DNA of 64,000 bases from Demequina sediminis (GTDB lineage: Bacteria > Actinomycetota > Actinomycetes > Actinomycetales > Demequinaceae), in assembly GCF_030296675.1 (NCBI RefSeq), contig NZ_AP027736.1:558001-622000 (forward strand). The letters run 5' to 3'. The notes under the pieces are model-generated. The model saw only the letters and a program-made list of their open reading frames with translations. It was not told the origin of the DNA and made no database searches. How positions within the stretch are numbered: position 1 is the stretch's first letter; every line of letters begins with the position of its first letter. This document shows, piece by piece, positions 3,280-49,222 of the stretch. The translations under genes were made by a program, and so were the position numbers.

Positions 3280-3849
3280 TCAGACCGGGTACTCGCCCCT
3301 CGCGACACGCGGCTTGGGCGCGCGGAAGCGGCGGATGTTGAGCGCTCGCGCGATCACGTAGAAGGTCCAGGCGCGCGGCAGCTTGGTGGCGCCGAACTTC
3401 GCGACGAACCGCTTCTTCATGCGACGGATCATGAGCCACGTGTCGATCGCGACCGCGAGCACCAGCATGTAGAAGATCGCGATGAGCAGCAGGCCCGCCA
3501 CGGAGTTGCCAGGGATCGCCAGCGACGCGATGACGAACACGATCGACAGCGGCAGCAGGAACTCGCCGGGGGAGGTGCGGGCGTCGACGTAGTCGCGCAG
3601 CCACCGTCGCTCGGGACCGCGGTGCTCGAGCGGCATGTTCCGCTCGTCGCCCTCGCGCATCGCCTGGAACTCCTTCTCGCGCTGGAGGCGCTGCTTCTCG
3701 CGCTGGTCGCGGCGCGCGGTCTTGGAGTCGGCGATGACCGGGCGACGTCGCGCGGCTTCCTGCTCCTTGCGCTTGGGCGTGGGGCGGTTCTTCTTGCCGG
3801 GTGTCTCGATGCCGGGCGCGTCGGGCTCGGGCGTGGTGTGGTCGCTCAT
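3280..3849 (-). CDS. DUF3043 membrane protein
   Basis: 189 residues. The N-terminal 90 residues are very charged (Lys/Arg/Glu/Gln-rich, with repeated basic clusters such as KRKEQEAARRR). Two hydrophobic segments follow (about 98-118 and 120-140), then a basic tail. This is the layout of actinobacterial DUF3043 proteins. It lies immediately downstream of nadA on the same strand with a gap of about 40 bp, so co-transcription is possible. Function unknown. Confidence 0.8.
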   Translation of the reverse strand: MSDHTTPEPDAPGIETPGKKNRPTPKRKEQEAARRRPVIADSKTARRDQREKQRLQREKEFQAMREGDERNMPLEHRGPERRWLRDYVDARTSPGEFLLPLSIVFVIASLAIPGNSVAGLLLIAIFYMLVLAVAIDTWLMIRRMKKRFVAKFGATKLPRAWTFYVIARALNIRRFRAPKPRVARGEYPV

Positions 3850-8747: not shown

Positions 8748-10458
8748 TGGCTACCGTCCCCCACGAGGCAGGCGACGACCGCCGCACCGTGACGCTCCCG
8801 ACCGCGCCCGCGCGCTCCGGCTCGATCGTGGTGAAGTGGATCACCTCCACCGACCACAAGACCATCGGGTACATGTACCTGATCACGTCGTTCTTCTTCT
8901 TCATCGTGGGTGGACTGCTCGCGCTGCTCATCCGTGCCGAGCTCTTCGAGCCGGGCATCCAGGTGGTGCAGTCCGCGGAGCAGTACAACCAGTTGTTCAC
9001 GATGCACGGCACGATCATGCTGCTGCTGTTCGCGACACCGCTGTTCGCGGGCTTCGCGAACTTCATCATGCCGTTGCAGATCGGCGCGCCCGACGTGGCG
9101 TTCCCGCGTCTCAACATGCTCGCGTACTGGCTCTACCTCTTTGGCGGAGTCATCGCGATGGCGGGCTTCTTCACGCCTCAGGGCGCGGCCTCGTTCGGCT
9201 GGTTCGCGTATGCGCCGCTGTCGAACGCGGTGTACTCGCCCGGCGTGGGTGGCAACCTGTGGGTCTTCGGCCTGGCGCTCGGTGGCTTCGGCACGATCCT
9301 CGGCTCGGTCAACTTCATCACGACGATCGTCACGATGCGCGCGCCCGGCATGACGATGTTCCGCATGCCGATCTTCACGTGGAACATCCTCGTGACGTCG
9401 ATGCTCGTGCTGCTCGCCTTCCCGCCGCTCGCCTCGGCGCTCTTCGCGCTCGGCTCGGACCGCGTGCTCGACTCTCAAGTCTTCAATCCGGACAACGGGG
9501 GAGCGATCCTCTGGCAGCACCTCTTCTGGTTCTTTGGCCATCCAGAGGTGTACATCATCGCGCTGCCCTTCTTCGGCATCGTCTCCGAGATCCTGCCGGT
9601 CTTCTCGCGCAAGCCGCTGTTCGGCTACCACGGCCTCGTCTACGCGACCATCGCGATCGCCGCGCTGTCGGTGACGGTGTGGGCGCACCACATGTACGTG
9701 ACCGGCGCCGTGTTGCTGCCGTTCTTCGCGTTCATGACGATGCTCATCGCGGTGCCCACCGGCGTGAAGTTCTTCAACTGGATCGGCACGATGTGGCGAG
9801 GAAGCTCACCTTCGAGACGCCGATGCTGTGGTCGATCGGCTTCCTCGTGACCTTCCTCTTCGGTGGTCTCACGGGAGTCATCCTGAGCTCGCCGGTCCTG
9901 GACTTCCCGCTCTCCGACTCGTACTTTGTGGTCGCGCACTTCCACTACGTGGTGTTCGGCACGGTCGTGTTCGCGATGTTCGCCGGCTTCTACTTCTGGT
10001 GGCCCAAGTTCACGGGCAAGATGCTCAACGAGCGACTGGGCAAGATCCACTTCTGGCTGCTGTTCTTCGGCTTCCACATGACCTTCCTGGTCCAGCACTG
10101 GCTGGGCGCTCGGGGCATGGCGCGGCGCTACGTCGACTACATGCCCGAGGACGGCTTCACCTGGATGAACCAGCTATCCACCGTGGGCGCGGTGCTCACC
10201 GCGATCTCGACGCTGCCCTTCCTGTGGAACGTGTACATCACCTCGCGCCGCGCGCCAAAGGTCACGGTCAACGACCCGTGGGGCTTCGGCAACTCGCTCG
10301 AGTGGGCGACCTCGTGCCCGCCGCCGCGTCACAACTTCACGTCCATCCCGCGCATCCGCTCGGAGCGTCCCGCGTTCGATCTGCACCACCCGGGAGCCGC
10401 CGCGCGCGATCACTACCAGGCGGAGCGTGACAACACCGATCACGCGCCCGTCGCGTAA
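8747..10458 (+). CDS. ctaD: Cytochrome c oxidase subunit I (one-base frameshift)
   Basis: Heme-copper oxidase catalytic subunit with about twelve transmembrane helices. Histidine motifs are present: [30 protein letters not shown] and [10 protein letters not shown]. The frame is lost near 9805. WIGTMWRG reads on as [11 protein letters not shown] only if one C is restored in gaagctcacc. The full product is then about 570 residues, normal size. An essential oxidase subunit should not be broken, so I take this as a sequence error. ctaC-ctaD-ctaF form one operon. Confidence 0.93.
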
Positions 10459-10991: not shown

Positions 10992-13364
<2,373 letters not shown>

Positions 13365-28141: not shown

Positions 28142-29104
28142 ATGCATGCAATCGGCGTAGACATCGGCGGCACCAAGATCGCGGTCGGTGTGGTGGACGA
28201 GGACGGCAGGATCGTCGCGAAGACCAAGCGCAAGACCAAGCCGCAGGACCCGGCGGGCATCGATGCCGCAATCGCCGATGCCGTGGCCGAGCTCGCGGTC
28301 GATCACGAGTTTCACTCGGTGGGCCTCGCGGCCGCCGGCTTCGTGTCCTCCGACCAGGAGCACGTCCTGTTCGCTCCCAACATCGCGTGGCGCGACTATC
28401 CGCTCGCGGCCAACGTGCGCGCGCTGCTGGGTCGCGATGATGTCGCGGTGGTCGTGGAAAACGATGCGAACGCGGCCGGGTGGGCGGAATTCGCCTTCGG
28501 CGCCGCGCGCGACGTGCAGCACATGGTGCTGCTCACGATCGGCACCGGTCTGGGTGCGGCGATGGTGGTCGACGGCAAGCTCGTGCGCGGCGCGTACGGC
28601 TTCGCCGCCGAGCTCGGCCACCTGCGCGTGGTGCCCGGCGGGCACTCGTGCGGCTGCGGACTGCGCGGCTGCTGGGAGCAGTACGCGTCGGGTTCCGCGC
28701 TGACGCGCGAGGCGCGCCGCGCCGCTATCGAGCGTCCCGTGCGTGCCGCCGCGCTCCTCGAGCTCGCCGGCGGCGACCCGTCCGCGATCACCGGCCCGCA
28801 GGTGACCCAGGTCGCCGTCGCGGGCGACGACCTCGGCATCGAGCTGCTCGCGGAGCTCGGGCGTTGGATCGGCGAGGGCTGTGCCTCGCTCGCCGCGGCG
28901 CTCGACCCCGAGCTCTTCGTGATCGGCGGCGGCGTCATCGCGGCCGGCGACCTCCTGCTTGGCTCGGCACGCCACGCCTTCGAGGAGAACCTGCCCGCGC
29001 GTGGACACCGTCCGATCGTGCCGATCGTGCCCGCGCAGATGGGCAATGACGCGGGAATCGTGGGTGCGGCCGACCTCGCACGCATCGCCTCCGCCCGCCG
29101 GTGA
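28142..29104 (+). CDS. glk: ROK-family glucokinase
   Basis: 320 residues. ATP-binding DIGGTKIAVGVVDEDG lies at the N-terminus; the catalytic segment VENDANAAGWAEF contains the base Asp. The ROK zinc motif is G-H-L-R-V-V-P-G-G-H-S-C-G-C-G-L-R-G-C, giving the CxCGxxGC cluster. It phosphorylates glucose in the first step of glycolysis. The start is ATG 28142 (MHAIGVDIGG). Followed 7 bp later by the acyltransferase gene, then pfp. Confidence 0.93.
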   Translation: MHAIGVDIGGTKIAVGVVDEDGRIVAKTKRKTKPQDPAGIDAAIADAVAELAVDHEFHSVGLAAAGFVSSDQEHVLFAPNIAWRDYPLAANVRALLGRDDVAVVVENDANAAGWAEFAFGAARDVQHMVLLTIGTGLGAAMVVDGKLVRGAYGFAAELGHLRVVPGGHSCGCGLRGCWEQYASGSALTREARRAAIERPVRAAALLELAGGDPSAITGPQVTQVAVAGDDLGIELLAELGRWIGEGCASLAAALDPELFVIGGGVIAAGDLLLGSARHAFEENLPARGHRPIVPIVPAQMGNDAGIVGAADLARIASARR

Positions 29105-38716: not shown

Positions 38717-40171
<1,455 letters not shown>

Positions 40172-40243
40172 CGGTTGTGCATCGGTCCGACTATTCAGCA
40201 GGTAAATCGCTGGATTGTCGGGCCGATGTCAGCACCATACACC

Positions 40244-40258
40244 CGCACAGCGCTTCTA
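40244..40258 (+). repeat. Left arm repeat of the element
   Basis: cgcacagcgcttcta, exactly repeated at 49103-49117 near the other end. A related ctagtcca-gatatt stretch lies right beside each copy. Likely arm-type binding sites for the integrase or an excision factor. Confidence 0.6.
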
Positions 40259-40284
40259 GTCCAGATATTCGATAGACTGGCCTC

Positions 40285-41179
40285 GTGCCTACTGACATCG
40301 AATACAGCGCCCTGCTCGAGTCGTGGGTGCTCGCACTGCGCGCCGAACGCAAGTCGCCGGCGACAATCAAGTCCTATACGGATGGCGTTCGTGGGCTCTT
40401 TGCCTGGTGCGATGAACAAGGCGCGGCGCGGGAGCCGACGCGCGCGAGCGTGAACGGGTACATCGCGGCCCTGCTCGACAGTGGGAAGCAACCTGCCACC
40501 GCGCGGTCACGCCAACTCGGCATCCGGCGGTTCACTCGATGGCTAGCCGACGAGGGCGAGATTGAGGCGGATCCGCTCGTGGGACTTAAGCCGCCCAAGC
40601 TCGACGCGCCCATCGTTGAGCCGCTGAGCGATGCCGAGCTCAAAGCGCTTATTCAGGCGTGCGCTGGCAAGGAGTTCCGCGACATTCGCGACACCGCGAT
40701 CGTGCGCCTCATGGCTGAGACGGGGATCCGAGCGGGGAGTGCGCCGTGATCGCCCTCGACGATCTGGACCTCATGGCGGGCACTGTAGTTGTCCGGAGAG
40801 GCAAGGGGGCAAGGGCCGCGTGGTGCCCATCGGCCCGCAAACAGTCCAGGCACTCGACCGCTACCGTCGACGCCGTGCAGGTCACGCGCTAGCGGGCTTG
40901 CCGAGCCTCTGGCTAGGGGAGCGGAAGCGCGGCTTCACCTATGACGCACTTCACAAGGCGCTCGAGGGGCGGGCGAAGGCCGCTGGGATTGCAGGCTTCC
41001 ACCCCCACAAGTTGCGTCACACGGCCGCCCATCGCTGGCTCGCGGCGGGTGGCTCTGAGGGTGGACTCATGGCGGTGGCCGGATGGACGCGCCCTGACAT
41101 GCTCCAGCGTTACACGAAGGCGCGTGCTGCCGAACGGGCGGCAGTGGAGTCGCGCTCGCTGAACCTGGGTGACATCTAG
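40285..41179 (+). CDS. Tyrosine-family integrase (two one-base frameshifts)
   Basis: About 298 residues after repair. N-terminal SAM-like core-binding domain (SPATIKSYTDGVRGLFAW), then the catalytic domain: Arg in AETGIRAGE, KGGKGRVVPIG, HKLRHTAAHRW with His and Arg, and the nucleophile Tyr in LQRYTKARAAER. Two losses break it: a G in 40734-40737 (GIRAG to ECAVIALDDLDL) and a G in 40805-40809. The GTG at 40285 lies 6 nt after a tagact box (leaderless). Placement beside attL is standard for element integrases. It should catalyse exchange at the sigA site. Confidence 0.9.
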
Positions 41180-41184
41180 GTTGG

Positions 41185-41218
41185 TGAGCGCTGTGGGTCG
41201 CGGTTTGCATAGCGCTCA
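41185..41218. terminator. Hairpin after the integrase gene
   Basis: tgagcgct / agcgctca, 8-bp stem with 18-nt spacer, starting 6 bp after the integrase stop. It contains agcgctgtg, the reverse complement of part of the arm repeat, so it might also bind the recombination proteins. Confidence 0.5.
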
Positions 41219-41431
41219 GTTGTCTGCGAACATGGAAATACAAGAGGTTGAGTTGATGCTCAACCGACCAGAACATCGACGACACCTAGTCCGATGGACC
41301 GGAGTTACATCGCGCAATGCGATTGCCGGATAAAGAGGTTCTAGGCCCCCGATGGGACAGCCTTCTGCAAGGCCCGCAATGGGCTACGTAGGAATGCTGG
41401 ACCGGGGCGGTTGAAGTAGGCGCAAGGCCCA

Positions 41432-41483
41432 AACACCGAGTTCACAGAACGAGCAAGAGGCTCGTAACTGTGTGCTCGGTGTT
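41432..41483 (+). promoter_or_regulatory. Strong three-segment hairpin in the leader before the element's main gene chain
   Basis: Nested pairs aacaccgag / ctcggtgtt, cacag / ctgtg and acgagc / gctcgt around the loop aaga form a 52-nt imperfect hairpin, 22 nt upstream of the start codon at 41506. It could be an attenuator or structured leader, or a replication site. The rest of the 41180-41505 interval has no gene I can support. Confidence 0.55.
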
Positions 41484-41505
41484 CGTGTATCCGAGAGGAA
41501 TCACG

Positions 41506-41817
41506 ATGGCCTTGCAAGCCGAGCGACGCCTTGCCGCTCAGATCGCCGCCCACGAGTCTTGGGCAACCACTGCCGACCGCTCCCGACGTACGGCGCCCGC
41601 GCGTGCCGCTCTTATGCGGAAGTTTGAGGATCAGGTCGATCCGGACCGCTCTCTCAGCCCTGACGAGCGCGCACGACGCGCCGAGCACGCTAGGAAGGCA
41701 TACTTTGCCCGCTTGGCGCTCAAGTCCGCGAAGGCCCGCGCGGCTCGCCTGATCGTGGCAGAGGGCGACGCTGCCGCGGTCGAGCTCGCCGCACTCGGGA
41801 GCGCTGATGCCCGGTGA
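41506..41817 (+). CDS. Conserved actinobacterial mobile-element protein, basic and helical
   Basis: 103 residues, Ala/Arg-rich, predicted all-helical, with AQIAAHESWATTADRSRRTAPARAA and ERARRAEHARKAYFARLALKSAKARA. I recognise this type from many actinobacterial integrated elements and phages; the function is unknown. ATG 41506 has the ribosome site gagagga. First gene of a chain in which almost every stop overlaps the next start. Could be a small DNA-binding or excision-type factor, but no HTH is evident. Confidence 0.65.
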   Translation: MALQAERRLAAQIAAHESWATTADRSRRTAPARAALMRKFEDQVDPDRSLSPDERARRAEHARKAYFARLALKSAKARAARLIVAEGDAAAVELAALGSADAR

Positions 41818-42053
41818 ATCGCGTCCCCCTCGACCCCTCTCGGGGTGCCATCGCCATCAGCGGCATGCTTGCCCGTGGCGAGCGCCTACCTGAGCCGCCT
41901 CCCTCCGTGCCGTGCCTCGACTGCGACGCCCCGGCACCCCGCAACACACGCCGATGCGACCGCTGCCTCGATGCGCTACTCGAAGGACTGAAGCGCCGCC
42001 AGGAGGCTGCACGGCGATGCATGCCTCTCGAGCACTTCGGTGGTGTCGCGTGA
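41814..42053 (+). CDS. Small zinc-ribbon-like protein
   Basis: 79 residues. CLDCDAPAPRNTRRCDRC has two CxxC pairs 9 residues apart and should bind one zinc. GTG 41814 overlaps the previous TGA (GTGA), and its own TGA overlaps the next GTG at 42050, so translation is coupled. Function not recognised; its place just before the helicase gene suggests a role in replication of the element. Confidence 0.6.
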   Translation: MNRVPLDPSRGAIAISGMLARGERLPEPPPSVPCLDCDAPAPRNTRRCDRCLDALLEGLKRRQEAARRCMPLEHFGGVA

Positions 42054-43260
42054 GCGCCGCGTGGCTCGACCTCCCGCCCCGGGCGGTGAGCGTTGACGGA
42101 GTTGACGGTTCGGACGGTCTGGGCGGTTCGGACGGGACCCCCTTGACGTTCTGTCGCGAACCGTCCGATGGCTCGCGCGGTACATCCGCACGACATCCGA
42201 CTACGACATCGAACTACTCGCCCTGTGGGTCCTCCACACTCACGTGGTCGACAAGGTTTACACGACGCCCCGCCTGCTCATCGATTCGCCGATGCCAGGC
42301 TCAGGCAAGACCACCGTGCTCGAGCACATCCAGCGCCTTGGATTCCGGCCCATGCAGGCCGCGAGCCTGTCCTCACCCGCATTGCTCGCCAGGGTCATCG
42401 ATCAGGGTGTGCGGACCATCTGCATTGACGAGTGCGACCGCAACCTCGACCCGAAGCGGGAAGGCGTCGGAGAGCTCGTGGCCGTCATCAACTCGGGATA
42501 CAAGCGCGGCGCGACACGTCCCGTCCTTGTGCAGGTGCGGGGCAGTGAGTGGGAGGTGTCTGAGATGAGCACGTTCGCGCCTATCGCGATGGCGGGCAAT
42601 CAGCCCGATCTCCCCGACGACACACGCTCAAGGACACTGCGCGTGTTGCTCATGCCCGATCTTGACGGCACCGTTGAGGAATCCGACTGGGAGCAGATCG
42701 AGCCGAATGCCGCGGATCTGAAGGCACTCATCGAGGAATGGGCGGCGAACTACGGCGAGGCCGTTGCGGGCGCATCAGGCGAGTTGCCTGGCGAGGTGAA
42801 GGGCCGCGCGCGCGAGCGCTGGAAGCCACTCAAGAAGGTTGCACAGGCGGTTGGCTACGGCTGGCCCGAGAAGGTCGACGAGCTCGCCATGCGGGACCTC
42901 GAGCGCGAGTCCCTCGAGCGCGAGGACGGCGCAGTGCGCGACAAGCCCGCCATCGTCGCACTCAAGGACGTCATGACAGTTTGGCCCGAGGGCCGCGAGC
43001 ACCTGACATCGGAAACCCTGGTCCGCTTCCTGATCGCCGAGAGCCCCGAACAGTGGGGCGCGACAAGTTCCTACGGACGCGCACTCACTCCGCAACGGCT
43101 CGGGCGCATGCTCTCGAGCAACTTCGGAATCCACACAGGCAAGACCTCAACCGGCGAGCGCGTCTACTTCCATGCCGCGTTCCTGACGGTGTGGGGCCGC
43201 CTCGGAGTGAAACCGCCCAGAGCGTCAACTCCGTCAACTCCGTCAGGGGGCACGGCATGA
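42050..43260 (+). CDS. DUF3631 P-loop replication/helicase-like protein (one-base frameshift)
   Basis: About 403 residues after repair. Walker A is SPMPGSGKTTVLEHI; Walker B-like TICIDECDRNLD follows, then IAMAGNQPDLPDDTRSRTLRV, the usual DUF3631 layout. The frame breaks in the C run 42138-42142; one more C joins SDGTP to LDVLSRTVRWLARYIRTTSD. Many DUF3631 proteins have a primase domain in front; here only about 35 residues precede it, beginning with the 9-bp repeat region (VDGVDGSDGLGG). Likely drives replication of the element, with the primer made elsewhere. Confidence 0.78.
42092..42136 (+). repeat. 9-bp periodic repeats at the start of the DUF3631 gene
   Basis: Five degenerate units: gttgacgga, gttgacggt, tcggacggt, ctgggcggt, tcggacggg. 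The core gttgacggagttgacg returns in inverted orientation at the gene's 3' end (43223-43248). Iteron-like. Confidence 0.6.
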
Positions 43261-43343
43261 GCTCCCCGTCAGCCGCCAGTCCCTCGACATTGACCCACCA
43301 GTGCGCACCGATTGCGCCGCGACCGAAGGAGATCCGCTCGTGA
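43257..43343 (+). CDS. Possible 28-residue peptide in the overlapping gene chain
   Basis: The ATG at 43257 overlaps the DUF3631 stop (ATGA) and the TGA at 43341 overlaps the next GTG. The sequence MSSPSAASPSTLTHQCAPIA has no recognisable domain. It may be a real peptide or just a translational bridge to the next gene. Weak support beyond the stop/start overlaps. Confidence 0.35.
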   Translation: MSSPSAASPSTLTHQCAPIAPRPKEIRS

Positions 43344-43741
43344 CGAAGAACAGGGATAGCGGGCCGAACTGGCCCACGAAGGCGCGTCGTGAGCTTAGGC
43401 GTCGACGTCGCAAGGGTGCTGCAACGCAGCCGGGACGATCCTTCGCGGAAGGCCTGGCACGTGACCTTATCGCGCTACAGGTCAGCCGCGGGATGCTCAC
43501 CAAGCCGCCGACCCGCCCACTGGACAAGGTGAGTGCAGTCCACATCCGGGAGACGCACGGCCTGTTCGGCACGGCGCGCGTGGCAACACATGGCGGCAAT
43601 GTCCGTGTCGCGTGGCGTCCCTCGGGGTGGTCGTGCACGGCGTGTGGGCCGCAGAGCATCCCCGGCTGCCCACACACCAAGGCTGTCGCTCGCACGCCTG
43701 CATGGCGAGCAGTCAGCGCGGGAGAGCAGGCGCCCGCATGA
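43340..43741 (+). CDS. Small basic protein with SWIM-like zinc motif
   Basis: 133 residues. The N-terminus is very basic (KARRELRRRRRKG); the C-terminal half has WSCTACGPQSIPGCPHTKAV, a C-x2-C then C-x-H arrangement like a SWIM finger. GTG 43340 is preceded by gaaggaga. The stop overlaps the next ATG (ATGA). Likely nucleic-acid binding. Not recognised as a named family. Confidence 0.6.
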   Translation: MTKNRDSGPNWPTKARRELRRRRRKGAATQPGRSFAEGLARDLIALQVSRGMLTKPPTRPLDKVSAVHIRETHGLFGTARVATHGGNVRVAWRPSGWSCTACGPQSIPGCPHTKAVARTPAWRAVSAGEQAPA

Positions 43742-43950
43742 TGCCCGCCGCCACCCGGATCCGGACCAGCGGGCGTGACCTGGTTGCGTTCGTAACCATC
43801 CCCGGCGAAGACGAAGTGCGTGTGCGGTGGACCCCGCCGGCGAACTTTCGATGCGACATCCACGGCCCCTCACCAGTCGCCGACTGCCCACACGCGGCAG
43901 CGGTGCGCAACTCACCCCAATACCTCTACGACACGGAGCCCCACGAATGA
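43738..43950 (+). CDS. Second small SWIM-like protein
   Basis: 70 residues. FRCDIHGPSPVADCPHAAAVR repeats the C-x-H ... C-P-H pattern of the preceding gene product, and a VRVRW segment parallels its VRVAW. The two therefore look like a tandem duplication that has diverged. ATGA overlaps at both ends. ATG 43741 is an equally possible start. Confidence 0.55.
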   Translation: MMPAATRIRTSGRDLVAFVTIPGEDEVRVRWTPPANFRCDIHGPSPVADCPHAAAVRNSPQYLYDTEPHE

Positions 43951-44191
43951 CCGACCAACTCACCAGGGCCGACCTCGACGGCATGACACCCGAGCAGATC
44001 ACCGACGCGCTCGACGCCGGACGCCTCGCGGTCACCCTCGGGCAGTACGCGCCCGACGAGGCCCCCTCATCGACCGTGCCCGACACGGAGCGATCACCCG
44101 CGCCGACATTGCAGACCTGGCCCGACTGGGCCGACACGACCTGATCGCGGCAGCCGTCGACGATCGCCGCATCACCACCAAGGAGAACTGA
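43947..44191 (+). CDS. Small protein of unknown function (one-base frameshift)
   Basis: About 81 residues after repair. It begins MTDQLTRADLDGMTPEQITD. In the C run 44062-44066 one base is missing; restoring it continues LIDRARHGAITRADIADLAR to the TGA at 44191, 2 bp before the next ATG, which supports the repair. Helical, possibly HTH-like, a pattern seen in small actinophage proteins. Function unknown. Confidence 0.5.
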
Positions 44192-44193
44192 CC

Positions 44194-44949
44194 ATGGCCG
44201 AAACCACCCGCCGCAGCCTCAAGCACTTCCAGCGTGACCACCGCGTGTCCGAGCCTCGCCTCATCGCAGGCACCTCGGGACTGCCTCCCCGCGAGCTGTA
44301 CCTCGACCACCCCGACGCCCTGGCACGCCACGACGCCTACACGGCCACCCTCGAGCGCATGGCACAGCGAGGCCGCGAACGTGCCGCCCTGCGCGCTAAG
44401 GCCGAGAATGCAGCCGCCGAGTATCGGGCCGCACGACACGCAGCCGCCGACGCTGGCGAGGACCCTGGCAAGGTCGTCGACAAGTCCCCGAAGATCGTCG
44501 AGCAGATCGCACAGGTGCAGGCCGCCTACGACGACGACGCACGCCAGCTCGAGCGTCAGGGTCGAGCCCTCGCCGCCGCCATGCAGGACGTCGCCATTCC
44601 CGTGGCCCTCGCATCCGAGAACCTGGCACGCGAGGCCGTCACCCGTGCCCGCGATGCCTACGAAGCCCTGACACTCGCCGAGGCCGACTACCGCGAGCAT
44701 GCAGGAACCGCGCTCACCATGCGCCGCCTCGCCCTGTACGGCGGCACCATCCCGAACCTGCGCACCGCAGGCAAGGGACTACCGGGCTTCGCTGTCGCAG
44801 CAGTCGACTTCGACGCCGCCGCAGCACTGCCCGACCAGATCGCCACCGAGGCCCACGCCGTCGAGGCATGGCGCACCGAGCAGGAGCAGGCCCGAGTAGC
44901 CAACACCACCGGAGCGCGAGTGCGTGCCGAGGACTTCACCACCGCGTGA
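44194..44949 (+). CDS. Coiled-coil protein of unknown function
   Basis: 251 residues. Long Ala/Glu/Arg/Gln-rich helices (about 55-175, such as AENAAAEYRAARHAAADAGE) suggest a coiled coil. The C-terminal YGGTIPNLRTAGKGLPGFAV and DFDAAAALPDQI look globular. No signal peptide. Could be a structural, scaffold-like or capsid-size-altering protein given its place before the terminase small subunit, but that is only inference. Confidence 0.5.
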   Translation: MAETTRRSLKHFQRDHRVSEPRLIAGTSGLPPRELYLDHPDALARHDAYTATLERMAQRGRERAALRAKAENAAAEYRAARHAAADAGEDPGKVVDKSPKIVEQIAQVQAAYDDDARQLERQGRALAAAMQDVAIPVALASENLAREAVTRARDAYEALTLAEADYREHAGTALTMRRLALYGGTIPNLRTAGKGLPGFAVAAVDFDAAAALPDQIATEAHAVEAWRTEQEQARVANTTGARVRAEDFTTA

Positions 44950-45140
44950 GCCACGCCGCGCGCTCGTGTCAACAACGGCGCGAGCGCGCGGCCCCGCCAC
45001 GAAGGCAAAGGCTCAGGTAAAGGAGCCGTCAAGGGGTGGGGACAGGCCCGTCGAGCCCTTCCCGTGCTTGACCGCCGGAGAGGAGGGAAGAGTTGGCAAC
45101 GGTAAATGATGCTCAGTTTTCGCCACCGAAAGGTAAAGGA

Positions 45141-45530
45141 ATGACCGACGTAGAGACCCCTGATGGCCTCGGTTCGCGGGGTGCGAGGTTCTGGACCGCG
45201 ACCCTCGAGGCGTATGAGCTGTCCGACTCAGAGACGCCACTGTTGCTTGAGGCGTGCAGGACCCTCGACAACCTCGACGCGCTCGCCCAGGCTGTCGCCG
45301 ACCACGGCGCCATGACCGTAGGAAGCATGGGACAGCCCGTCGTGAACCCTGCACTCACCGAGGCGCGAGGCCAGCGGATCGTGTTGCACCGGCTACTCGC
45401 AGCGCTGGCACTCCCTGATGAGGATGGCGAAGCAATCCCCACTGGCGCACAGCAGCGCGGCAAGGCGTCAGCGGCGAAGCGCTGGGCTGGACACACGTCC
45501 GAGCGTGCCCTCAAGGCGGTGGGGAAATAA
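45141..45530 (+). CDS. Phage terminase small subunit, P27-like
   Basis: 129 residues. LEAYELSDSETPLLLEACRTLDNLD and the following helices, with VNPALTEARGQRIVLHRLLAAL, match P27-family small terminases, which bind the packaging site and recruit the large subunit. ATG 45141 is taken because aaaggtaaagga precedes it; a TTG at 45093 is possible. No large terminase follows. A lone small terminase is a hallmark of satellites that redirect helper-phage packaging. The stop shares one base with the next ATG. Confidence 0.7.
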   Translation: MTDVETPDGLGSRGARFWTATLEAYELSDSETPLLLEACRTLDNLDALAQAVADHGAMTVGSMGQPVVNPALTEARGQRIVLHRLLAALALPDEDGEAIPTGAQQRGKASAAKRWAGHTSERALKAVGK

Positions 45531-45766
45531 TGGCCCGCGCACGCCGCACCACGACCCCCACAGCCGACGACATGCCTGCCAGCCTGCGTGAGTACCACCC
45601 GGGCGACTGGCCCCCGCCTCTCGAGCGCGTCGAGCCGATGGCCGCTACTTGGGGTCGTGCCCGCATGGCCGCCATCGTGTCCCGGTCGCTGTGGAGTGCC
45701 GCACGACGCGCGTGGCTTCACTCGCGTGGACTGCGCACCGTTCGCGACCTCGAGGGTGGTGCGTGA
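45530..45766 (+). CDS. Small protein downstream of the terminase small subunit
   Basis: 78 residues. It begins MARARRTTTPTADDMPASLR and contains WPPPLERVEPMAATWGRARMAAIVS. TAATG overlap with the terminase gene and TGATG overlap with the next gene. Not recognised; probably part of the packaging cassette by position. Confidence 0.5.
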   Translation: MARARRTTTPTADDMPASLREYHPGDWPPPLERVEPMAATWGRARMAAIVSRSLWSAARRAWLHSRGLRTVRDLEGGA

Positions 45767-46026
45767 TGGCCCGCGTTCGCCGTGCAGCATTCGACCCCAC
45801 AGGGCTTCCTCCCGAGGTCGCCGCTGGCCCCACGCATCCGGCATGGGGCGGCACGGGTGATCCCGACGACCATGGCGCGCGCTCGAGGTGGCAAGACGCG
45901 GGCCGCGAATGGTCCCGCGCCGCACTGGGCAACCTCAACGGCTGGATGACGCTTCTCCCGCGCGACGTCCGCCTCGAGCAGTCTGCGCGTGGACGTGCGA
46001 GGCGCATGGGAGCGCTCGAGGACTAG
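45766..46026 (+). CDS. Small protein, last gene of the plus-strand chain
   Basis: 86 residues. It contains WGGTGDPDDHGARSRWQDA and NGWMTLLPRDVRLEQSARGR. One-base overlap with the previous gene. Its stop meets the stop of the opposing gene at 46023. Not recognised. Confidence 0.5.
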   Translation: MARVRRAAFDPTGLPPEVAAGPTHPAWGGTGDPDDHGARSRWQDAGREWSRAALGNLNGWMTLLPRDVRLEQSARGRARRMGALED

Positions 46027-46424
46027 TAGCAGCTCGCGAGCTGCATCCATTCGTCGATGTACCCCATCAGGTCGGCGTTGTTGTGCCCCGTGCGATCCAT
46101 CGTGATGCCGTTGTTTGCATCTGCGGTGTCGAACTCGGCTTGCAGCCCCGCGCAGTCGGCGTCAGCGCCCATCGCGTCGATGCGCTCCCGCACACTTGTG
46201 TCGTAGTCCTCCCACGGCACGTCAGCCGAGGGCGCGGTGGGCTCGGGGTCAGCAATACCCGTCTCGACCGTGGCGGGCGTCGTATTGGCCGTGGTCGACT
46301 GCGGATCGCTTCCGCCCGTGATCGCGTCCGTGAACCACCAGATGCCTGCCACGAACAGCCCGATGATCAGGAATCCCGGCAGGCACCCGATCCGCGTTTG
46401 TCGACGTGAAGACCTTGCCATCAT
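46023..46424 (-). CDS. Membrane-anchored extracytoplasmic protein
   Basis: 133 residues. Basic N-terminus, one transmembrane helix (about 14-34, PGFLIIGLFVAGIWWF), then a Thr/Pro/Asp-rich spacer and a small acidic domain with two Cys (DADCAG and ASCY) that could form a disulfide. It lies in the cargo part of the element. Surface location suggests a role in phage interaction or exclusion, but nothing proves it. Confidence 0.55.
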   Translation of the reverse strand: MMARSSRRQTRIGCLPGFLIIGLFVAGIWWFTDAITGGSDPQSTTANTTPATVETGIADPEPTAPSADVPWEDYDTSVRERIDAMGADADCAGLQAEFDTADANNGITMDRTGHNNADLMGYIDEWMQLASCY

Positions 46425-46498
46425 TGCCCCCTCAGATGCGTTGGTTCACACCATATGCCCACGCCCCTCCTGTCAGCCGTCGCCGCGACCATTCGGTC

Positions 46499-46705
46499 AT
46501 GCCAGGTGAACAACTACTCCTGTACGCCGCCGCTCGAGCCGGCCGCACCGCGATCCTCGAGACCGCATCGGGCCGCATCGTCGCATGGGTCGAGGTACTG
46601 CCCGACGGGATGCTCCGGGCGCGCCGTCGGTCCTGGAGGTCCGATCCTGTCGAGACGGTGCCGCAAGCGATCAGGGCCGCCGCCGTGATGCCGCAGTGGG
46701 GTTGA
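46499..46705 (+). CDS. Small protein, unknown
   Basis: 68 residues: MPGEQLLLYAAARAGRTAIL, then ASGRIVAWVEVLPDGMLRARR, which reads as a short beta-rich domain, with no cysteines. It starts in the space after the divergent membrane protein. Start uncertain. Not recognised. Confidence 0.4.
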   Translation: MPGEQLLLYAAARAGRTAILETASGRIVAWVEVLPDGMLRARRRSWRSDPVETVPQAIRAAAVMPQWG

Positions 46706-46774
46706 GTGCTCAAACGCAGACCCCAGGGATCCCGCGTGTTCGCAATGACGTTGGTCCGGAGTAACCTGCACTGC

Positions 46775-47461
46775 ATGGCTGGGGGAACGGCGAAATCTGA
46801 CTACATTCGGCGTACGCGTCGAGTTGCCACCGTGACGAAGTGGTCTGCCGTCTCGGTCGGGCTGTTGGCGATCGTCGCCACAGGCTTGCTCTGGTGGGCA
46901 TCTGTGTCGGCGCGGGAGACGCTCAGCGGTGCCGATGCCGATTTGTTCCTGGCGAGTGCGAGCTCGATCGCAGCCGGTCAGGCCGATGCCGAAGCCAAGG
47001 CGGCTCTCACGGAGGCGAAGAGCGCAGCCGATACCGCGACTGCCCAACTGAAGGCCGCACAGTCGCGCGCAGATCAGGCGTACTGGGACTGGTATATGGG
47101 CTGCGAGAGATGTGTGGCCGACTACAACTACGCCAGCTCTCTAGTGGAATCTGCCGCAACTGCCAGCGACGCTGCGAACGCCGACTATCGGAGCACAACC
47201 TCGGACGCCGAAGTGACGAGCGCAAGACTCGCAGAATCCCTGGCAGGCGAAGTGACCGCGCGCGCAGCACAGGCGAGCGCCTCCGACGAAGCGGAGGTGT
47301 TCTCTGCTCTGGCCATATGGGCTTCCGGCGCCACCGTAGCCCTACTGATCCTCGGCGCCATCGCCGTGCTAGTCACCTCAACGATGGCGCTGCGCGCGCG
47401 CGCAACGTTCGAGGGCTCGGAAGACGGGGAGACAGGCGTACTCGGCTCGTCCCCTACGTGA
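46775..47461 (+). CDS. Membrane protein with long extracellular coiled coil between two helices
   Basis: 228 residues. First helix about 20-43 (WSAVSVGLLAIVATGLLWW), last helix near the C-terminus (IWASGATVALLILGAIAVLV). In between lies an Ala-rich coiled coil interrupted by YWDWYMGCERCVADYNY with a Cys pair. ATG 46775 is chosen because a taacct box ends 7 nt before it, giving a leaderless mRNA with its own promoter; in-frame starts at 46706 and 46745 would lie upstream of that transcript. Cargo of the element, function unknown. Confidence 0.55.
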   Translation: MAGGTAKSDYIRRTRRVATVTKWSAVSVGLLAIVATGLLWWASVSARETLSGADADLFLASASSIAAGQADAEAKAALTEAKSAADTATAQLKAAQSRADQAYWDWYMGCERCVADYNYASSLVESAATASDAANADYRSTTSDAEVTSARLAESLAGEVTARAAQASASDEAEVFSALAIWASGATVALLILGAIAVLVTSTMALRARATFEGSEDGETGVLGSSPT

Positions 47462-47592
47462 GGGGCAAGGCGTGTTGCTGCGGGTCTATGCAGCGAACGG
47501 CGCCGCCTCAAGCGCAAGTGCGACGAGGTACCTGGGCATGCGTGGCAATCGAAAACGTGCCGGGGTGTATTCGAGCCGCTGTTGCCCCACTT

Positions 47593-48045
47593 CTACGCCC
47601 CGAGATCTCCACTTGCCGTGGCGATCGCTGCGGTGACCTCGCGAGGAACTGGCATATCGAGACCAACTCTCTGGCGCCTGTTCGTGCCGTCCGTGCGTTC
47701 CTGCCAACGCAAGGTTGCATGCGGCTTCTTCGTCGTTCGCTCCCACCTGGCGGTGGCGGAGATCTTGTCGCCCGGCTTCATCACAGGCTTGGTTGATCCG
47801 CCCATAGACGTGCGCGTCACGCCGTCCGAAAACTCAATCCGGACATTGAGCGCCAGGTCGGGTTGAACTCGTGTTGCGATGACCTGCACGCGCAGTTCGC
47901 CCACGACGCGAGATAGCTGGATGTGCCATTTGACCTCACGGCGCTTGCGCCGCCACTCCGCCCAGCGTGCTCCTAGCCATACGAGCAGGGGTATTGCAAG
48001 GAACTGCGCAACCCACTGCCAGTTCTCGCCAAACCATTCGGTCAT
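47593..48045 (-). CDS. Single-pass membrane protein with cytoplasmic beta-rich domain
   Basis: 150 residues. Starts MTEWFGENWQWVAQFLAIPL, one helix (about 10-28), then a basic stretch AEWRRKRREVKWHIQL that should face the cytoplasm, and a beta-rich domain ending in PREVTAAIATAS. Cargo of the element, unknown function. Low GC codons are more frequent than in the core genes around the island (impression only). Confidence 0.5.
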   Translation of the reverse strand: MTEWFGENWQWVAQFLAIPLLVWLGARWAEWRRKRREVKWHIQLSRVVGELRVQVIATRVQPDLALNVRIEFSDGVTRTSMGGSTKPVMKPGDKISATARWERTTKKPHATLRWQERTDGTNRRQRVGLDMPVPREVTAAIATASGDLGA

Positions 48046-48066
48046 GGGCTGAGGTTAGCAACGGCG

Positions 48067-48098
48067 ACGGCCCGCTCCTCAGATGAGGGGCGGGCCGT
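48067..48098 (-). terminator. Hairpin downstream of the HTH regulator
   Basis: acggcccgctcctca / tgaggggcgggccgt, near-perfect stem with one G-U pair, between the stop of the minus-strand HTH gene (48177) and the start of the next minus-strand gene (48045). Confidence 0.75.
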
Positions 48099-48176
48099 TG
48101 TGGATCCTCCAACCGAGCACAGGCCCGGTTTCCCTATTCAGTTGTGGTTGTCCCGCGGTGGTAGGGCGCGAGTTCT

Positions 48177-48431
48177 CTAGGCGGACATCTCGGCTTCGGT
48201 GGGGAACACGTCCTCGTACTTGAGGTCAAGAGCCTTCATGATGTCGATGACTTCGGGCACGGACGCCTTGCCAGGGTCGGCGACCACCCGCTCGAAGCGC
48301 TTGAGCGCCATGCCCGACAGTTGGGCGAGTGTGGACCGGTCGCGCCCGTCAGCGTTGATTGCCTTCTCGAGCTTCGGCGCCATGATCTCACTGACTCGGC
48401 TGAGGTCAACAGTTCCATTGGACCTGGGCAT
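48177..48431 (-). CDS. XRE/Cro-like HTH regulator of the element
   Basis: 84 residues. RSTLAQLSGMALKRFERVVADPGKASVPEVIDIMKALDL is an HTH of the XRE type (a LAQLSGM helix, a recognition helix, then a PS-type continuation). ATG 48431 follows ggagg at good spacing; the longer frame lacks support. Transcribed against the main gene chain, near the right end, as expected for an element repressor. Likely keeps the element quiet. Confidence 0.7.
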   Translation of the reverse strand: MPRSNGTVDLSRVSEIMAPKLEKAINADGRDRSTLAQLSGMALKRFERVVADPGKASVPEVIDIMKALDLKYEDVFPTEAEMSA

Positions 48432-48779
48432 TTCATCCTCCGTTGCTAGTTGGTCTTCCTGGTCTACTGCGGCGGTCTGACAAGGCGAGGTGTGCGCTAC
48501 GCGCACCTGTCCCGGATCGACCCCTCACCCCGGCCCTCAAGCCGCCCCCGAGCCATTGCCGCTGTTCGGACAGCGCCCGTAGACCCGTCACCGTGGGGAG
48601 ACAGGCCTACCGGGACCCCGCGCACGCCCTGGCCAGGACGATCGCACGCGCGAGGCGGGAGGCCCGTCACACTCCATTCACGGGACGTCTCGGTTAGCGG
48701 CTGAGACGTAGAGAAAGCGCCGAGGACTAGAGGCCCTACGCCGCCACCTGACAGCACGCCAGGGGGCGACGTAGGACCG
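48432..48779. other. Noncoding interval with two inverted repeats
   Basis: 348 bp between the HTH gene and the next gene on the same strand. Two short overlapping plus-strand frames (about 48450-48700) look like shadows. It holds acgtctc ... gagacgt (48685-48709) and the terminator-like hairpin at 48735-48775. This is the natural place for the regulator's promoter and operators, but I cannot point to a convincing operator. Confidence 0.5.
48735..48775 (-). terminator. Hairpin after the 77-residue gene
   Basis: cctacgccgccacctg / cagggggcgacgtagg, 16-bp stem with two imperfect pairs and a 9-nt loop, 4 bp past the minus-strand stop at 48780. Confidence 0.7.
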
Positions 48780-49013
48780 CTAGGCGGCGAACTGTGGGAA
48801 GCGTTCGGCGAACCAGCGCAACGCGTCACGGTGGTCGTACCATGCCTGCTCGGCGGCAATGGCGTATCCCGCAGCGCGCACGTCGAGGCGCTCAGCGGTG
48901 GGGACGTTCAGGGACTCCCATTCGAGGGCCGCGAGGTCGCGCAGATCGGTCGCGGTCGCGGCGAGCAGCTCAGGGCTGGTCGAGTGTCGGGGTGCGGCGG
49001 TAGTCTCAAGCAT
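48780..49013 (-). CDS. Small protein nearest the right end of the element
   Basis: 77 residues, helical: LLAATATDLRDLAALEWESL and GYAIAAEQAWYDHRDALRWF. ATG 49013 has the ribosome site ggagg. Not recognised; its position beside attR could suit an excision factor, but there is no HTH that I can see. Confidence 0.5.
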   Translation of the reverse strand: MLETTAAPRHSTSPELLAATATDLRDLAALEWESLNVPTAERLDVRAAGYAIAAEQAWYDHRDALRWFAERFPQFAA

Positions 49014-49102
49014 GGCGGCCCTCCTTGTGGTCCGTCTCGCCCGCCCGGTGCTCCAACACCGAGGCGGGCTCTTCTTGGTGCCGCTAGTCCATGATATTTC
49101 GT

Positions 49103-49150
49103 CGCACAGCGCTTCTACCAGGCCCGTTCGCTGTGCTTGGTTGCACAGCG
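49103..49150 (+). repeat. Right arm repeats of the element
   Basis: cgcacagcgcttcta (49103-49117) copies the left-arm sequence exactly. Next to it lies an exact inverted repeat cgctgtgc / gcacagcg (49129-49136 and 49143-49150) using the same gcacagcg core. Probable integrase/excisionase binding arms beside attR. Confidence 0.6.
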
Positions 49151-49165
49151 CATATGCCTGACGAG

Positions 49166-49183
49166 TGCGCGACTACCTGGACT
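49166..49183 (+). other. attR core
   Basis: Second exact copy of tgcgcgactacctggact. Immediately after it comes a TGA, which completes the ancestral sigA reading LRDYLD-stop. Confidence 0.88.
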
Positions 49184-49199
49184 GACACGCATCGTGAGG

Positions 49200-49222
49200 G
49201 GGCCCGCCGTGACGGCGGGCCC
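49200..49222 (+). terminator. Original sigA terminator, displaced by the element
   Basis: 10-bp perfect stem gggcccgccg / cggcgggccc with loop tga, followed by ttt. It lies 17 bp after attR, where the sigA 3' end would be without the insertion. Confidence 0.78.

Follow-up and report, generated by a model that had tools for sequence, protein, structure and literature searches.

What allows a mobile element to lodge in the end of the gene for its host's primary sigma factor, and what kind of element would make use of such a place? The question is raised by a stretch of 64,000 nucleotides of the actinomycete Demequina sediminis (contig NZ_AP027736.1, positions 558,001 to 622,000; hereafter the window, whose coordinates are counted from its first letter), in which a 9.0-kb element lies at the 3' end of sigA. 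A sequence-only reading of this locus had described an exact repeat at both ends of the element, integrase, helicase-like, small-terminase and helix-turn-helix (HTH) genes and no virion structural genes, and had suggested an undescribed satellite family. We consider it probable that the window element is an integrated mobile element of the phage-satellite type that uses sigA by the mechanism set out below.

The element restores the coding end of sigA

The 18-mer TGCGCGACTACCTGGACT occurs exactly and in the same orientation at 40152-40169 and 49166-49183 (forward strand), thereby bounding the element, and these are its only exact copies in the 2.7-Mb genome (two forward, none reverse, and none for the reversed pattern used as control); with up to three mismatches the window contains one further match (3582-3599, three mismatches), the average in shuffled sequences being 0.08. 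The left copy, or attL core, encodes RDYLD, the C-terminal end of a 484-amino-acid (aa) open reading frame (ORF; 38717-40171, forward strand) which we take, from its sequence rather than from a profile scan, to be the primary sigma factor gene sigA, and a TAG stop comes next. The right copy, or attR core, leads into GAC-TGA, the ancestral stop, and then into a GC-rich hairpin at 49200-49222, so that the ancestral end of the gene and its original terminator are found at 49183-49222 on the forward strand; relatives without the element show the sigA stop and terminator hairpin in this same layout. The repeat, its left copy as the last sigA codons and its right copy followed by the old stop and a terminator-like hairpin are thus as the sequence-only reading had them. 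Since the core restores the end of sigA, the essential gene should survive the insertion; the restored coding end is directly observed, and its expression would be expected to continue.

The sigA tail was found in all 44 genomes of the genus that were searched, the window's own included (a single contig, 93% complete). In six of them (G002, G004, G016, G026, G027 and G041) it lies 18-98 bp from a transporter-like gene of the opposite strand, by eye of the drug/metabolite transporter (DMT) type, which in the window stands about 80 bp past the right repeat. Seven further genomes show this gene 311-1380 bp from the tail, and in the other 29 genomes without the element it was unmatched within the stretch examined. 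A sigA tail close to the transporter-like gene in relatives is the layout expected from insertion at the sigA end, and the empty sites looked for in close relatives do exist. A tRNA as the target was discarded, the sole tRNA of the window being located at 28621.

An integrase clade associated with sigA in Actinomycetes

The predicted tyrosine integrase is present in the element but, as a correction to its first description, it is split in the assembly over two overlapping frames of the forward strand: an N-terminal piece with a SAM-like domain (40285-40749; PF02899, 1.7e-7; phrog_1, 6.2e-18) and a C-terminal catalytic piece in another frame (40631-41179, with homology from about 40800; PF00589, 6.4e-11). 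A search of 47 genomes of the family with the catalytic piece retrieved one other match, in G012, also directly after sigA. The G012 element encodes an open 298-aa integrase, to which the window's catalytic piece is 80% identical over residues 55-182, and has repeats at both ends, 8.85 kb apart, with a core one base different from that of the window. Integrase and F1, the small protein discussed below, are the only tblastn matches between the two elements. Besides these two, G012 encodes WhiB and a protein resembling replication initiators, together with a capsid of the HK97 type and a tape-measure protein. It was also observed that the capsid and tape-measure genes of this 8.9-kb element (L042, 6008-9691) have no portal or terminase in sight.

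With the G012 integrase as query, matches at 1e-30 were obtained in 14 of 396 genomes of the order. They lie behind the sigA tail in the window's genome, G012, G157, G074, G143, G336, G234 and G319, with 60-67% identity to the G012 integrase (67% and 81% for the two pieces of the window), and none of the remaining matches shows the tail. We define the sigA-tail clade by at least 60% identity to the G012 integrase and a sigA tail directly upstream, a definition that places the window within it. A scan of named genomes, in which 80 of 127 relatives were retained, left 78 informative loci once two with too little upstream sequence had been set aside, and 56 of these integrases are located 100-389 bp behind sigA (55 were recognised by pattern; the other, L153, has a sigA with the ending REYLE). 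The association is seen at 50 of the 51 loci at or above 60% identity and at 6 of the 27 below it. The single exception above this threshold, L124 of Nocardia jejuensis (position 9859), has core and integrase, but 9.9 kb of upstream sequence contain no sigA; it may represent a tandem copy or one that has moved. In the 56 of 78 it is scored as not at sigA, whereas the tree, the count of F1 and the hairpin comparison include it under the sigA label. Four loci are common to the named and order counts (L114 and G143, L115 and G074, L127 and G336, L152 and G319). The hosts include Streptomyces, Nocardia, Mycobacterium, Nocardioides, Rhodococcus, Actinomyces, Janibacter and Glutamicibacter, so that the same integrase ends in sigA far more widely than had been supposed.

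In a quick tree of 100 integrases the sigA label is strongly clustered, requiring 12 changes versus 31.6 in shuffles, and groups at other sites are nested among the sigA ones. That sigA is the older state of the target is only a suggestion of this tree, which leaves 39 of its 97 inner forks open and drew a long-branch warning from the program; the integrase of L196, read out of frame (branch length 3.85), has a meaningless placement.

Arm motifs, hairpin and F1 as probable parts of the integration module

The motif GCACAGCGC, searched with one mismatch allowed, recurs around the cores of the 28 elements for which both repeats were found. In the window it occupies 40245-40253, at position 94 from the left core start, and 49104-49112 and 49143-49151, 80 and 41 nt from the right core end (all on the forward strand). 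Counterparts are found at 84-96 on the left in 23 of the 28 elements, and on the right at 79-81 in 10 and at 41-42 in 20 of them; further matches in element interiors (0-9, and 13 in a 30-kb element) have no fixed place. Because of this fixed spacing from the cores, these are likely the arm sites of the integrase. The left core itself encodes RDYLD in 57 of 58 loci, the exception having RDYLE, although RDYL was demanded by the search pattern. Where left and right cores differ, the change is at a third codon position in 15 of 17 cases.

Directly after the restored sigA stop there is a hairpin (40178-40231, forward strand; -38.7 kcal/mol and z -6.0 for the 75-nt stretch), a possible replacement for the displaced sigA terminator. 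In 68 loci, which include L124, Streptomyces phage Kromp and four of the free-attP viral contigs presented below, the 75 nt after the left core have a mean z of -2.7 versus -0.24 in 408 control stretches from the same loci, and z is below -2 in 54% of the former and 7% of the latter. The p value of 1.6e-17 for this comparison is too small, since the loci are related, the shuffles keep base composition only and the controls are mostly coding. No clear folding excess was seen at this place in G157, G336, L112 and L133.

The 103-aa helical protein F1 (41506-41817, forward strand; phrog_2842, 6e-11) accompanies the integrase clade. Reading of the sequences places it in 26 of the 28 elements; a count of 27 obtained by clustering was rejected as inflated through linkage by an F1-capsid fusion in L140, a 4.9-kb sigA element in which a deletion seemingly joined F1 to the end of a capsid gene (11146-11769). 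An F1 profile matched 52 of 60 sigA-labelled loci (two of the eight misses stop just past the integrase), all 6 loci with a free attP, among them Kromp (as gp39), 20 of 28 loci at other sites and 6 of 6 at unknown sites. In the genus it is found in 2 of 44 genomes, which are both carriers of the sigA integrase, and the profile found nothing in the fetched genus elements that carry a small terminase at other sites. This distribution indicates that F1 goes with the integrase and not with the cargo. Its structural model (predicted local distance difference test, pLDDT, 95) has three helices, and with a best PDB match at E 4.2 the idea of a winged-helix excisionase was dropped. So was that of a protein found solely in satellites, because the profile finds Kromp and viral contigs where tblastn had found no F1 in phages. 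F1 is a candidate recombination accessory or directionality factor that might control the direction of the reaction, a role that we regard as possible and rather doubtful.

Phages with the same kind of attachment core

Streptomyces phage Kromp (MH744420), isolated on S. lividans, encodes an integrase that shares 59% identity with its G012 counterpart, and its free attP core, which is followed by a stop and a strong hairpin, is one base away from four of seven Streptomycetaceae sigA tails compared (that of S. lividans not among them). It therefore resembles the sigA elements in integrase, core and F1 homologue, and differs from them as a 58-kb phage with the full virion set (terminases, portal, capsid and tail), for which a junction in the sigA of its host is predicted. 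Related integrases are also found in 144 further phage records, those of Mycobacterium phages, at about 43% identity among the matches listed. Five viral contigs (L183, L185, L186, L187 and L194, with L185 and L187 apparently nearly identical) have a free attP arrangement like that of Kromp, and one sigA element, L182, was itself found among viral contigs; direct terminal repeats, a sign of circles, were absent from six short viral contigs. Kromp and the contigs with a free attP show that the sigA site is not private to satellites.

Size and mosaic cargo of the sigA elements

The 28 elements with both repeats have a median size of 9.5 kb and range from 4.9 to 30.2 kb, most loci having been examined over 10 kb downstream only, which favours short elements; pairs with 0-2 mismatches were kept, and L122, with three, was dropped before counting. 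In the order genomes the stretch examined was 60 kb in four, 54 kb in G336, about 22-23 kb in G074 and 7 kb in G143. Six cases, the window among them, yielded a second repeat, at distances of 6.1, 8.3, 8.9, 9.0, 10.4 and 30.2 kb, and in G074 and G143 none was found within the lengths just given. Past the integrase behind sigA, contig 8 of G074 shows by eye sugar-metabolism and relaxase-like genes. Also by eye, the 30.2-kb island of G319 has genes resembling those of type I restriction systems and of large helicases, and none for virions.

The cargo of the sigA elements is mosaic. We scanned 157 proteins of at least 120 aa, called with a home-made gene caller beyond the integrase region of 27 elements (G319 excluded), and counted matches per protein without assigning them to single elements. 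The Pfam families listed (for one subset, A4, the best 25 of 33, the eight outside having a single member each) include 14 capsid proteins of the HK97 type (PF05065), three prohead proteases, two tape-measure-type proteins, one portal and one large terminase, besides primases and AAA proteins; the second tape-measure match, in subset A3, probably comes from L105. Portal and large terminase are again seen once each in the PHROGs families listed (best 25 of 104 and of 117), together with at least three small terminases besides that of the window, which makes at least four in the cargo. A head without portal and terminase would be unable to fill itself, and this pattern would accordingly point to a helper.

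The window element, a small terminase without recognised virion genes

Ten ORFs of the window element, two of them the integrase pieces, were scanned against Pfam and PHROGs, several ORFs below 100 aa being outside the scan. The element encodes a terminase small subunit, TerS (45093-45530, forward strand; phrog_1496, 2.4e-21), whose model from three sequences (mean pLDDT 75) has the HK97 TerS as best fold match (probability 0.97, E 0.15) and which in tblastn matched 114 phage records, all below 60% identity. A DUF3631/AAA protein, probably a replication ATPase (42244-43260, forward strand, start uncertain; PF12307, 3.6e-16; 29% identity to L046), is the sole replication-type match, no primase or origin having been recognised in the window. 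Around this gene we observed a 46-nt inverted repeat (78% complementary; 42083-42128 and 43211-43256) with GTTGACGGAGTTGACGG-like units, which may be origin iterons. Capsid, portal, tail and large terminase were not found among the ten ORFs, and megablast of the window DNA revealed no direct similarity to phages. Integrase, TerS and a helicase-like DUF3631 protein are thus supported by profiles, the HTH protein being a weak match (phrog_2328, E 0.18); the lack of virion genes stands for the scanned ORFs of the window and fails for elements at the same site elsewhere, which often have a capsid gene.

TerS relatives occur in 7 of the 44 genus genomes, the window counted. The stretches around them in G004, G039, G020, G005, G027 and G014 contain an integrase or a serine recombinase and small replication or regulatory genes, with no large terminase or portal by eye; capsid-like genes are present in G020 and G014 and were not seen by eye in the other four. 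In G004 and G039 the stretch from the integrase to the last regulatory gene measures about 9 kb. These elements occupy other sites, two adjoining a glutamine-synthetase gene and one a tRNA-Arg gene. The former pair (L047 and L048, from G020 and G005), with the integrase next to the same gene, glutamine synthetase by eye, constitutes a second protein-gene docking site. Given that TerS elements of similar span reside elsewhere in the genus, the sigA module is a docking part and not the mark of one satellite family.

Proposed mechanism and alternative explanations

In the mechanism that we propose, the tyrosine integrase would recombine the 18-bp core of attP with the end of sigA, which has the same sequence. 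Arm sites placed at constant distances to the left and right would assist it, as would, probably, F1, and the core would donate the last sigA codons and a stop, often with a hairpin after it. Upon infection by a helper phage the element would excise and would rely on its own ATPase and associated functions for replication, and its TerS would direct the large terminase of the helper to the element DNA, as in the Staphylococcus aureus pathogenicity islands (SaPIs). The sigA tail suits this use, as it encodes an essential and nearly invariant peptide present in every host. The integrase, F1 and att module would be old and carried by many mosaic elements and by some phages of Actinomycetes. With rather less than even confidence, we would go further and see in the sigA tail an ancient, class-wide docking port of Actinomycetes, served by a dedicated module (integrase, arm sites, donated tail with hairpin, and F1 as a new all-helical directionality factor) that is passed among satellites and helper-size phages competing for the site, other gene-end sites having arisen by switching.

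Several observations weigh against the satellite interpretation. Helper dependence, excision, packaging and transfer of the element are inferred; the split integrase may mean that this copy is immobile, or it may be an assembly error. TerS scores 0.015 against Pfam Terminase_4, below the Pfam cut-off, and three of the seven genus TerS matches cross a stop. The PF03354 large terminase is absent from the window's genome, which therefore has no resident helper of that type; it is found in 4 of the 44 genus genomes, including G004 at a place apart from its TerS element. Two of the 28 sigA elements are devoid of F1, the size distribution carries the bias towards short elements mentioned above, and the left hairpin lacks a T run and was unflagged by a consensus terminator scan, which also left the original sigA hairpin on the right unflagged.

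The split integrase could also belong to a full prophage that decayed at sigA, losing its virion genes and keeping integrase, terS and a few others, and phages with the same kind of attP core do exist (Kromp, and viral contigs of 59-79 kb), while the L140 deletion, which fuses F1 with a capsid remnant, is in line with such decay. Yet a similar size is found again and again in elements whose cargo is unrelated, the genus has TerS elements at other sites in which the gene order is similar and the integrase open, and TerS, DUF3631 and F1 are all open in the window, so that we deem this origin unlikely. Alternatively, the window copy might be the small representative of a self-packaging lineage with a capsid of its own, the capsid gene having been lost here, as the 14 capsid-family proteins among the cargo and the capsid with tape measure of G012 would suggest. 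However, portal and large terminase, both needed for head filling, appear once each among the families listed, and the TerS elements of G004, G039, G005 and G027 lack a capsid by eye, which renders this alternative quite improbable. We give the least credit to a non-phage genomic island, or integrative and mobilizable element, with a phage-like integrase and TerS as mere cargo: the restriction-like island of G319 at the same site and the large share of cargo without family are in line with it, whereas the capsids and at least four TerS in the cargo, the presence of L182 among viral contigs and the lack of a relaxase among the ten window ORFs scanned (Pfam) all speak against it.

A phage satellite as the preferred explanation invites comparison with the phage-inducible chromosomal islands (PICIs) of the SaPI type. 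Like these, the window element is small and integrated, with att repeats and an integrase (split in this copy), has TerS without a large terminase in the scanned ORFs or, for PF03354, in the whole genome, and has no virion gene in the scanned ORFs (many sigA relatives differ in having a capsid). It may also have a replication module, of which the window shows the DUF3631/AAA protein only, and the HTH-like ORF at its right end, a weak match, is the one candidate for a master regulator, none of the stl/alpA kind having been recognised. In contrast to them, it has no recognised capsid-size or packaging-interference gene; it resides at sigA, carries the DUF3631 ATPase and F1, and its helper is a presumed one.

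Capsid-forming PICIs have their own capsid, portal, protease, connectors and both terminases (PMC10690885), of which the scanned window ORFs have TerS alone. The Streptomyces satellites MulchRoom and MiniFlayer, likewise of actinomycete phages, encode a capsid module and a packaging module that includes both terminases, have virulent helpers and lack a primase (PMC10690885); the window element again differs by its lone TerS and the lack of a recognised capsid. Candidate mycobacterial PICIs include phiRv1/phiRv2, in a 2023 survey that required a capsid gene and whose three illustrated tyrosine-integrase examples are at tRNA genes (PMC10654092), and small prophage-like elements of Mycobacterium are listed at 9.3-12.9 kb (PMC3986857). 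These are integrase elements of actinobacteria too, some with helicase, terminase and capsid, and many sigA elements, G012 included, share the capsid gene with them, while the scanned window ORFs do not. The terms 'sigA' and 'sigma factor' are absent from the main texts of both papers, as are two 8-letter pieces of the core from that of PMC3986857. An integrase clade bound to a single protein gene, in prophages and islands alike, is known from the dusA islands (PMC4482086) and from TIGER/Islander (PMC12424338); the dusA clade is tied to the 5' end of its gene and the sigA clade to the 3' end of the primary sigma factor gene.

As kinds, TerS islands, satellites of these dimensions and integrases that target the end of a gene are all known. 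In the literature searches and main texts covered, which took in few subscription papers, we found no account of integration into the sigA/hrdB tail, and such elements may well be present, without comment, in databases of genomic islands. As for the proposal of an undescribed family defined by its site, the restoration of the sigA coding end by a site-specific element is borne out, and the family is not supported in that form: the cargo is mosaic, a 30-kb island is found at the same site and Kromp has a free attP with the same kind of core, the TerS relatives of the window dwell in elements at other sites, and small Mycobacterium prophage-like elements and candidate PICIs are in print (PMC3986857, PMC10654092). 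If our reading is right, sigA is a very widespread integration site of actinobacteria, among them genera for which genetic tools are scarce, and satellites and phages contest it as a common resource. With Kromp, isolated on the laboratory strain S. lividans, site, arm motifs and F1 function can be put to a direct test, and the combination of integrase, F1 and sigA tail would give a handle on actinobacterial satellites missed by capsid-based surveys, such as the TerS-only element of the window.

Remaining genes of the element and other target genes

On the forward strand, F1 is followed by a 79-aa Cys-rich ORF (41814-42053; a 23-residue match in L048) and the DUF3631 gene by a 146-aa ORF (43301-43741; partial matches in L048 and L046). 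Upstream of terS lies a 251-aa protein (44194-44949) that aligns weakly, at 19-21%, with proteins in the same place in L045, L046, L048 and L049, and at 30% identity with a protein of L127, a locus without known terS. A 78-aa ORF adjoins terS (45530-45766; 66% to L046), and a 228-aa coiled-coil or membrane-like ORF of uncertain start (46775-47461) has no convincing family in Pfam or PHROGs. The reverse strand accommodates a 133-aa ORF with one membrane-like segment by eye (46023-46424), a 150-aa ORF (47593-48045; 30% to L046), the HTH-like ORF, a possible repressor (48177-48431; its weak match was obtained with a longer frame of 109 aa) that would face the integrase once the element ends are joined, and a 77-aa ORF (48780-49013), this last and the 133-aa one being known from the ORF list.

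Beyond sigA, relatives of its integrase at L161, L166, L171 and L172 are located behind a gene ending in VNLEVDVIAKYVERL, presumably riboflavin-synthase-like, which would represent a switched target in Mycobacteriaceae. More distant relatives are placed behind genes with NLKLPKGFEKFLGPGADKD and YPPEYPKMPGEP-like ends (L074 and L075; L077, L078 and L082), each of these targets being common to at least two loci, and F1 is also found in the fetched loci L099-L101.

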